NCBI GenBank assembly: GCA_016124335.1
Contig: WGNX01000005.1
Span: 1 to 64,000, forward strand
DNA: 64,000 nucleotides
Origin: Alphaproteobacteria bacterium
Lineage (GTDB): Bacteria; Pseudomonadota; Alphaproteobacteria; CACIAM-22H2
Direction: 5' to 3'
Positions within the stretch are counted from its first letter, which is position 1. Each line of letters starts with the position of its first letter. The position numbers were made by a program, and so were the translations under genes. Under the pieces are notes generated by a model. The model saw nothing but the letters and a program-made list of their open reading frames with translations, had not been told where the DNA came from and did not search any database. This document shows positions 30,343 through 32,431 of the stretch, in pieces.

Positions 30343-31479
30343 CTAGCCGACCAGCCGGCCCACGACGCGGGCCGTGTAGTCGACCATCGGGATGATGCGC
30401 GCGTAGTTGAGCCGCGTGGGCCCCACCACGCCGATGGCGCCCACGATGCGCTCGGTGGCGTCGCGATAGGGCGCCACGATGGTCGTGCAGCCCGACAGGC
30501 CGAACAGCTCGTTCTGCGCGCCGATGAAGATCTGCACGCCGTCGGCGGCCTGCGCCTGCTCGAGGATGCGCGCCATCGATTCGTGCTGCTCGAGCGCTTC
30601 GAACAGCCGGCGGATGCGCTCGAGATCCTCCATCGCGTGGACGTCCTCGAGGAGCTTGGCCTGCCCGCGCACGATGAGAACGCCTTCGCCCACGCTGCCC
30701 TTGTCGGGCGTCGACCACACGGCAAGGCCCTGCTCGACGACCTTCTGCGAAAGCAGGTCAAGCTCGGCGCGCGACTCTTCGAGCCGGCGCAGGATGTCGG
30801 CGCGCGCCTCGCCCAGCGTGCGGCCGGTGAGATGGGCCGAAAGGAAGTTGGAAGCCTGCGTGAGCTGTTGCGGCGTCAGCCCCACCGGCGTTTCCACGAC
30901 GCGGTTCTCGACGAGCCCGCGCTCGGTCACGAGCACGACGAGCGTGCGACCCGGCCCCAGCGGCACGAATTCCACGTGCTTGAGCGGCGAATCGGACTTG
31001 GGCGCGATGACGAGCCCCGCCCCGCGACCCAGCCCTGCGAGCATCGCGCTCGCCTGCTCGAGCACCTGACCCACCGAACGCCCGCCGGCCGCGCACTGTG
31101 CTTCGATCTGCTCGCGCTCCTCGCCCGACAGGCGGCCCACTTCCAGAAGCCCGTCGACGAACAGGCGCAGGCCCCGGTCGGTCGGCAGGCGGCCGGCCGA
31201 GGTGTGCGGCGAATAGAGCAGGCCCAGATCCTGGAGATCGGCCATCACGTTGCGGATGGTGGCCGGCGACAGCGGATCGGCAAGCTGGCGGGAAAGCGTG
31301 CGCGAACCCACGGGCTCGCCCGTTTCGACATAGGCCTCGACGATGCGGCGGAAGACCTCGCGCGAGCGTTCGTCCATCGCGGCAATGCCGCCCGCGCGCG
31401 GATCGGCCGGGGCTGCCGGTGCGGCAGCCGAAGCCTGCGGCGGCCTTCGTTCGAACGGCACGATGGGGGTTCGGCTCAT
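30343..31479 (-). CDS. hrcA: heat-inducible transcription repressor HrcA
   Basis: A 378-residue repressor. The N-terminal winged helix contains VGSRTLSRQL and SPATIRNVMADLQDLGLL (about 74-91), followed by the GAF-like inserted dimer domain; the C-terminus ends GVVGPTRLNYARIIPMVDYT. HrcA binds CIRCE elements and is kept active by GroESL. No CIRCE (TTAGCACTC-N9-GAGTGCTAA) was found in this window, so its targets, usually groESL, lie elsewhere. A TTGACA sits 30 bases upstream of the start inside a direct repeat; the -10 region after it is poor. Confidence 0.95.
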   Translation of the reverse strand: MSRTPIVPFERRPPQASAAAPAAPADPRAGGIAAMDERSREVFRRIVEAYVETGEPVGSRTLSRQLADPLSPATIRNVMADLQDLGLLYSPHTSAGRLPTDRGLRLFVDGLLEVGRLSGEEREQIEAQCAAGGRSVGQVLEQASAMLAGLGRGAGLVIAPKSDSPLKHVEFVPLGPGRTLVVLVTERGLVENRVVETPVGLTPQQLTQASNFLSAHLTGRTLGEARADILRRLEESRAELDLLSQKVVEQGLAVWSTPDKGSVGEGVLIVRGQAKLLEDVHAMEDLERIRRLFEALEQHESMARILEQAQAADGVQIFIGAQNELFGLSGCTTIVAPYRDATERIVGAIGVVGPTRLNYARIIPMVDYTARVVGRLVG

Positions 31480-31502
31480 GCCGTACTAGGTAGGCACCGC
31501 CT

Positions 31503-31522
31503 GCCTTGCGTGTCAACGCGTC
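31503..31522. repeat. 20-base direct repeat, copy 1
   Basis: Bases 31503-31522 (gccttgcgtgtcaacgcgtc) are repeated exactly at 31633-31652, 130 bases apart. The pair flanks a palindromic element. Read on the minus strand the copy contains TTGACA, which could serve as the -35 of hrcA. Confidence 0.9.
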
Positions 31523-31529
31523 CACGCCC

Positions 31530-31620
31530 GTCATGGCCGGGCTTGACCCGGCCATCCACGACTTGGACATCGAACACCGGTGCGGAAATCGTGGATGCCC
31601 GGCTCGAGGCCGGGCATGAC
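31530..31620. repeat. dispersed palindromic repeat between hrcA and rph
   Basis: The left arm begins GTCATGGCCGGGCTTGACCC and ends CATCCACGA; the right arm, read in reverse complement, begins GTCATGCCCGGCCTCGAGCC and ends CATCCACGA. Each arm also contains its own small hairpin. Elements with this GTCATG-CCGGG-CATCCACG pattern are widely repeated between genes in alphaproteobacteria, which is why spurious SWMPGS-type peptides are common in their annotations. It may fold into a large cruciform or RNA hairpin. Confidence 0.8.
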
Positions 31621-31632
31621 GCCGTGGCGGCC

Positions 31633-31652
31633 GCCTTGCGTGTCAACGCGTC
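31633..31652. repeat. 20-base direct repeat, copy 2
   Basis: Exact copy of 31503-31522, lying 48 bases before the rph start. On the plus strand TTGCGT here, with 17 bases to TAGGTT, is a possible promoter for rph, but the match is modest. Confidence 0.9.
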
Positions 31653-31699
31653 GCGGACTAGGTTCGCCTCCCGCCGCCGAATACGAAAAGAGATCGAAC

Positions 31700-32431
31700 A
31701 TGCGTCCCTCGGGCCGTTCCGCCGACCAGATGCGCGAGGTCCGCCTCGAGCCGGGTTTCGCCAAGCATGCCGAGGGTTCGTGCCTCGTTCGCTTCGGCGA
31801 CACGCACGTCCTCGTCACCGCCTCGCTTGAAGAGAAGGTGCCGCCCTTCCTGCGCAATTCCGGGCAGGGCTGGGTGACGGCCGAATACGGCATGCTGCCG
31901 CGCTCCACCCACACGCGCACCGACCGCGAGGCGGCGCGTGGGCGTCAGTCGGGCCGCACGCAGGAAATCCAGCGCCTTATCGGGCGCAGCCTGCGCTCGG
32001 TCACCGACATGGCGGCGCTCGGCGAACGGCAGGTGAAGATCGACTGCGACGTGCTGCAGGCCGATGGCGGCACGCGCACCGCCGCGATCACGGGCGCGTG
32101 GGTGGCGCTGCATCAGGCGATCTTCCCGCTGTTGAAGGCCAAGGGCCTTGCGAAATTCCCGATCCGCGATCACGTCGCGGCCGTCTCGTGCGGCGTGTCG
32201 AAGGGCGAAAGCGTGCTCGATCTCGACTATGCCGAGGACAGTGCCTGCGAGGTCGACGCGAACTTCGTGATGAGCGGCGATGGCCGCATCGTCGAGGTGC
32301 AGGGCACGGCCGAGCGCGACCCGTTTGCCGAAGACCAGCTGCTCGCGATGCTGAAGCTCGCGCGCAAGGGGATCGGCGAACTCGTCCTCCTCCAGAAGCA
32401 GGCGGTCGCGAAATGGGCGGGCAGCGTCTGA
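31700..32431 (+). CDS. rph: ribonuclease PH
   Basis: A 243-residue phosphorolytic 3'-exoribonuclease that trims tRNA precursors. Start ATG 31700 gives the usual [20 protein letters not shown] after AAAAGAG. Conserved features include [18 protein letters not shown], the RxSxxRT-type block [19 protein letters not shown], and [19 protein letters not shown]. Length is normal for the family. It overlaps rdgB by 19 bases, and rdgB overlaps hemW by 4, making a three-gene operon. Confidence 0.96.

Follow-up and report, generated by a model that had tools for sequence, protein, structure and literature searches.

Our results indicate that two identical 20-base direct repeats between hrcA and rph are, very probably, a long target duplication left by the insertion of a palindromic REP dimer, with staggered cutting of the target and retention of both promoters as its presumed steps. 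The site lies in a 64,000-nucleotide stretch of alphaproteobacterial DNA (hereafter, the window), whose genome, G000, is an assembly of 2.90 Mb that is 74.6% complete. The sequence GCCTTGCGTGTCAACGCGTC stands at 31503-31522 and again, without a difference, at 31633-31652 (130 bases from start to start, 110 bases between), which confirms the repeats reported around the palindrome in the first-pass annotation; a weak lengthening to 25 bases (92%) was not counted in the repeat. Repeats and element sit in a 220-base gap between the divergent genes, with the following features.

30343..31479, minus strand: hrcA, heat-shock repressor (Pfam PF01628, E 1.2e-57)
31488..31493, minus strand: putative hrcA -10, CTACCT, 17 nt from TTGACA (spacing the same in 8/8 loci)
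31503..31522, plus strand: left 20-base repeat copy, read as target duplication, holding the putative hrcA -35 (exact repeat; single copy in the empty site G002:C1)
31511..31516, minus strand: putative hrcA -35, TTGACA, within the left repeat copy (conserved hexamer and spacing)
31523..31528, plus strand: left extension CACGCC, belonging to the inserted unit (missing from the empty site)
31529..31564, plus strand: CGTC-tagged REP monomer, tag outward (covariance model 62 bits, E 3.1e-17; covariation)
31565..31585, no strand: spacer between the two REPs
31586..31621, minus strand: second CGTC-tagged REP monomer, inverted (covariance model 57.6 bits, E 1.1e-15)
31622..31632, plus strand: right extension CCGTGGCGGCC, belonging to the inserted unit (missing from the empty site)
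31633..31652, plus strand: right 20-base repeat copy, holding the putative rph -35 (exact repeat; single copy in the empty site G002:C1)
31636..31641, plus strand: putative rph -35, TTGCGT, within the right repeat copy (pattern in 7/8 loci)
31659..31664, plus strand: putative rph -10, TAGGTT, 17 nt from TTGCGT (conserved hexamer and spacing)
31700..32431, plus strand: rph, RNase PH (Pfam PF01138, E 1.9e-30; PF03725, E 2.4e-13)

The palindrome has two arms of 36 nt (31529-31564 and 31586-31621) that are 83% complementary and lie 21 nt apart. Folded as single-stranded DNA, the 150-base stretch reaches -47.7 kcal/mol (z = -4.7), and 0 of 200 shuffles did as well. The element had been described beforehand as 91 bases of two inverted arms with internal hairpins; fold and covariation bear out the arms and the hairpins, but the size is 93 bases when the C of each CGTC tag is counted. 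From one repeat to the other, the 110 bases comprise CACGCC, a REP hairpin, a 21-base spacer, an inverted REP hairpin and CCGTGGCGGCC.

Judged by these sequence features, the palindrome is a head-to-head dimer of CGTC-tagged REPs, a widespread, published family without a known transposase. CGTC REPs were described by Di Nocera, De Gregorio and Rocco in 2013 (PMC3733652), who define them by an unpaired tag (CGTC, with TGTC and CCTC as permitted variants) at one end, an 8-9 bp stem whose first two positions are complementary A-T residues, a loop of 4-5 bases and a tail that is mostly CCA. According to the same account, head-to-head dimers with the tags outside predominate, tail-to-tail dimers are rare and the REPs are not associated with transposase genes (PMC3733652). 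Our elements agree with this description in tag, stem, loop and tail. Among 31 aligned monomers, the GTC of the tag was present in 31/31, preceded by C in 24, T in 3, G in 3 and A in 1; the hairpin stem has 9 pairs, with 99.6% of cells paired, and five pairs are changed on both sides across the 31 copies (23 cells with changes on both sides vs. 3.3 in shuffles). Stem pair 1 is A-U in 27 of 30 distinct rows and pair 2 is U-A in 25 of 30, the consensus loop has 5 bases (rows with one gap have shorter stem-loops) and the tail reads CCA in 29/31 monomers. The alphaproteobacterial host is a further likeness. Y1_Tnp (PF01797), the sole transposase profile searched, had 0 matches in the REP-carrying genomes G000, G002 and G003, which are drafts of 75-86% completeness. 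Head-to-head pairs with outward tags are likewise the predominant arrangement here, at 24 of 63 clusters among the matches listed. Our elements differ from the published ones in that tail-to-tail pairs are not rare (13 of 63 clusters among the matches listed), and the present analysis adds long target duplications and empty sites.

BLAST with the 150-base stretch gave at least 38 matches in G000, and a covariance model built from the 31 monomers (E up to 0.01) gave at least 53 matches in G000, at least 51 in G003 and at least 15 in G002. When the 110-base insert was used as the query, 4 of the 11 genomes of the genus had matches (39 in G000, 39 in G003, 9 in G002 and 2 in G004). Strict dimer patterns searched across the family and the class returned almost nothing outside the genus (2/23 and 2/289 genomes) because the dimers vary; a BLAST search with a consensus (E up to 1e-9) detected dimers in 9 of 86 genomes.

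The 20-base sequence is not a component of the REP element. Within 3 mismatches, the window holds no matches to it beyond the two copies (two or more matches in 0/100 shuffles), and G000 as a whole adds one, on C12, with 3 mismatches. Recurrence of the repeat beside other palindromes, the counter-case raised by the first-pass annotation, was not found: it does not go with other copies and lies outside the element. That the repeats belong to the mobile unit is exceedingly improbable, since the sequence is single-site in G000 bar that one match and other duplicated sites carry other sequences.

Two of those other sites, together with hrcA-rph, carry the argument for target duplication. At G000:C8:6964, GGCCTTTTCTTTT, in which a terminator-like hairpin with its T run ends, occurs twice, and the orthologues G003:C36 and G002:C142 have it once and lack the element. 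At G003:C15:28194, GGCGCAGGCGGCGGACT, the 3' end of a gene, occurs twice; it occurs once in the element-free orthologue G002:C220. At hrcA-rph, the empty site that had been proposed as a check exists in G002:C1: the palindrome is missing there, the 20-base sequence is single and both genes are intact. At three unrelated targets, therefore, the repeat is double where the element is present and single where it is absent, and we read the repeat of the window as a target duplication. This runs counter to the earlier opinion that the repeats are too long for one, given that unrelated insertions have 17- and 13-base repeats that are single where the element is absent. The same comparison bears on the suggestion, also made there, of replication slippage or a duplication that carried the hrcA -35, taken here as a local event in which the palindrome had no part. 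The presence of promoter elements of both genes in the repeat would suit such an event. However, other element copies have different long flanking repeats that are single at empty sites, and slippage leaves unexplained why the palindrome sits exactly between the copies at each site; we consider this origin highly unlikely.

Relatives of G000 differ in what they carry between hrcA and rph. G003 has the same element with the same arms; its version of the repeat, which ends in GCACC where that of the window ends in GCGTC, flanks the element in two exact copies. The G002 bin has two hrcA-rph loci with hrcA 90% identical, and may therefore be a mixture of two genomes: on C217 the element is present, with an exact left copy and 4/20 mismatches in the right copy, and on C1 (L036) there is no element and a single repeat copy with 1 mismatch to the G003 repeat. 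Neither element nor repeat was found at hrcA-rph in G006, G008, G009 and G001. Separately, the loci of G004 (L043) and G005 (L046) have ~0.9 kb of other sequence between the two genes.

G000 and G003 group together against the rest with a support of 100, so that one common insertion would most simply account for both. Both G000 copies have two base changes in common (GT for AC) against both G003 copies; a single old insertion would therefore require gene conversion, the alternative being two insertions at the same place. The C1 site has either never received the element or lost it precisely, and the element on C217 may stem from the same insertion or from a second one. C1 and C217 group with a support of 78 (hrcA and rph) or 86 (hrcA) and do not group in the rph tree; their grouping would agree with a loss of the element from C1 or with a separate, second insertion on C217.

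The position of the repeat relative to the promoters suggests how the insertion could have been tolerated. A TTGAC[AGT]-17-hexamer pattern lies at a constant distance from hrcA in 8/8 loci examined, and a TTGC..-17/18-TA.G hexamer pair lies ahead of rph in 7/8. A strict sigma-70 scan reported no promoter at hrcA-rph, so conservation is the sole basis for assigning these roles. The putative -35 boxes of hrcA and rph overlap as TTGCGTGTCAA inside the 20 bases of the empty site, and the earlier placement of an hrcA -35 in the repeat holds for the putative TTGACA box in the left copy, at conserved spacing. After insertion, the left copy has a -10 for hrcA only and the right copy for rph only. Because the -35 boxes overlap inside the duplicated bases, each gene would have kept a complete promoter, the left copy serving hrcA and the right copy rph. 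Insertion into an overlapping divergent promoter may thus be tolerated, as the duplicated target provides a second -35 box. In the right copy of G002:C217, TGTCAA (the hrcA box) is lost and TTGCGT-17-TAGGTT is kept. The hrcA repeat may have stayed intact because each copy holds the promoter of one gene.

To evaluate how common such repeats are, we used 111 of 119 covariance-model matches (the eight weakest, at E of 2.7e-4 and above, were left out), which among the matches listed formed 63 clusters; 61 of these had 50-base flanks on both sides and 2 did not. Repeats were scored at +1 per match and -3 per mismatch with a threshold of 13, and mismatched left/right flank pairs, homologous loci left out, served as the control. 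Among the matches listed, 4/61 clusters scored at least 13, with hrcA counted in two genomes, vs. 1/3588 control pairs. They were hrcA in G000 and G003 (20), G003:C15:28194 (17) and G000:C8:6964 (13). Head-to-head dimers alone gave 4/25 at this score, in 18 groups of non-homologous sites (among the matches listed). The distances of the four repeats outside the REP pair are comparable, at 6/11, 6/9, 10/11 and 19/19 bases. At a score of at least 10, there were 6/61 clusters among the matches listed vs. 17/3588 control pairs, the two additional ones being G003:C101:4069 and G000:C1:65599. The former has a 14-base repeat with one mismatch that is in part a palindrome, and its two flanks do not occur together in any relative. 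For the latter, a target duplication of the 10-base TTAGCCGCCG was rejected: the empty G003:C56 and G002:C211 derive the copies from different stretches. Weaker cases were CCGCCGCCC at G003:C28:22794 (score 9) and the tail-to-tail pair G000:C12:71968, whose 13-base repeat with one mismatch (score 9) starts like the REP tag.

No repeat scoring at least 13 was found at 57/61 clusters, or at 21/25 head-to-head dimers, among the matches listed. With time, an insertion would be expected to lose its redundant copy, as is happening to the right copy of G002:C217, and this may account for some of the repeat-less clusters, though perhaps not for all. At five filled but repeat-less loci (L060, L008, L018, L004 and L007), the intergenic flanks were too diverged from element-free relatives for base-exact junctions. 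Among 31 head-to-head dimers from seven other alphaproteobacterial genomes, 0 scored at least 13 (best 8), and the footprint is either lineage-specific or visible only in recent insertions.

The ends of the inserted unit bear on how it moved. The duplication at the three supported sites measures 13, 17 or 20 bases and is not fixed. The extensions outside the REP pair vary from 6 to 19 bases and have no common ends apart from pyrimidine richness (64% pyrimidines in the first 12 bases outside the tag, 539/840 positions in 70 arms, vs. 47% further out). These variable lengths, and ends alike only in pyrimidines, argue against a classical transposon with terminal inverted repeats; nor do the elements fit a classical MITE of a DDE transposon, as they have no conserved terminal inverted repeats abutting the duplication and no fixed short duplication length. 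Extended terminal repeats were likewise rejected as a general feature: complementarity between left and right extensions averaged 5.12 vs. 4.78 for mismatched pairs (sd 1.41, 25 dimers), and 2/25 dimers scored high.

The pattern fits staggered opening of the target with gap filling as well as a template switch during repair. We tentatively favor the former, in which the CGTC REP dimers of these genomes are copied in at a target stagger of 13-20 bases and without fixed ends, and in which the duplication at hrcA-rph split the overlapping promoter in two. In an ancestor of G000 and G003, a head-to-head dimer with its short extensions (~110 bases) would have been copied into the common promoter region of hrcA and rph. 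Nicks or breaks in the two target strands would have lain ~20 bases apart; once the unit had been joined in, gap filling would yield the ~20-base duplication. Other dimers in G000 and G003 would have inserted likewise and left duplications of 13 and 17 bases. Such a copy-in footprint is unlike that of a RAYT (REP-associated Y1 transposase) or a terminal-inverted-repeat transposon, and may be closer to target-primed insertion or to DNA capture at a staggered break.

Templated repair with no dedicated enzyme is a possibility that we also take seriously, if with some reserve. Here, a broken or stalled replication end would change over to a REP elsewhere, copy it together with part of its flank and resume 13-20 bases upstream of its point of departure, a course that would likewise leave direct repeats of varying length on either side of a ragged-ended insert. 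The varying repeats, the extensions with no common terminal sequence beyond pyrimidine richness and the lack of Y1 matches in the three REP-carrying genomes are all in line with it. It predicts, however, a donor with matching flanks, and no non-orthologous partner was found for the three duplicated sites among the REP clusters of these incomplete genomes; the enriched pyrimidine stretch, moreover, suggests a defined unit. Movement as single-stranded DNA by a RAYT or an IS200-type enzyme, with the repeats unrelated to it, is unlikely. REP hairpin pairs do look like RAYT substrates, and a Y1 match occurs in 2 of the 11 genomes of the genus. Against this stand the absence of PF01797 matches in the drafts G000, G002 and G003, the statement in PMC2817692 that IS200/IS605 elements make no larger target duplications, and the report of CGTC REPs without associated transposase genes by Di Nocera et al. 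(PMC3733652).

Several known systems resemble the present elements in part. REPINs and GTAG REPs moved by RAYTs (PMC8266576, PMC2817692) are also non-autonomous, intergenic inverted pairs of REP hairpins, but as described there they have a GTAG tag and a Y1 transposase, whereas ours have a CGTC tag. The IS200/IS605 relatives of RAYTs differ from our elements in the duplication, as noted above. IS1549 and IS1634 (IS1634 family) have long variable target repeats of 8-514 bp for which PMC2266710 offers no mechanistic model; these, however, are transposase-coding elements of 1.5-2 kb with conserved ends. The CcrM-associated intergenic repeat (CIR) of Caulobacter is, by its description, a short non-autonomous intergenic alphaproteobacterial element (PMC10969869), and the same source reports that younger bacterial MITEs are flanked by direct repeats. 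Our REP dimers differ from CIR and other bacterial MITEs in that their ends are not classical terminal inverted repeats.

The 2013 survey (PMC3733652) concluded that CGTC REPs have no dedicated transposase; whether new ones are still being formed was a point it did not decide. Its main text contains no word starting with "duplicat", no "direct repeat" and no "empty", and the open-licence literature searched yielded no account of target duplications for CGTC REPs. The family is known; as far as we have seen, the long-duplication footprint is new for CGTC REPs. Any mechanism put forward for CGTC REPs must explain long target duplications whose empty sites have a single copy, and these duplications offer a simple test for closely related strains, namely whether or not a fresh insertion is flanked by a repeat.

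We also note that a second, longer repeat family with REPs inside seems to be present. Similar flanks occur at seven REP clusters (G000:C12:322298 and C12:411354; G003:C76:2467, C81:592 and C88:20826; G002:C133:62 and C77:10793), five of which are tail-to-tail pairs, larger groups or singles and not head-to-head dimers, and some have in common an A+T-rich stretch with GTACATATGTAG. At three loci (L012, L078 and L083), a terminator-like hairpin with its T run lies a short way ahead of the dimer, in keeping with the known location of REPs downstream of genes. Partial loss of dimers was seen as well. G003:C5:3839 (L078) holds a whole dimer and G000:C1:506691 (L254) the first part of one REP only; downstream of a terminator, G003:C109:225 (L083) has a full head-to-head dimer and the orthologous G000:C9:49215 (L255) one short hairpin, as if collapsed by deletion.
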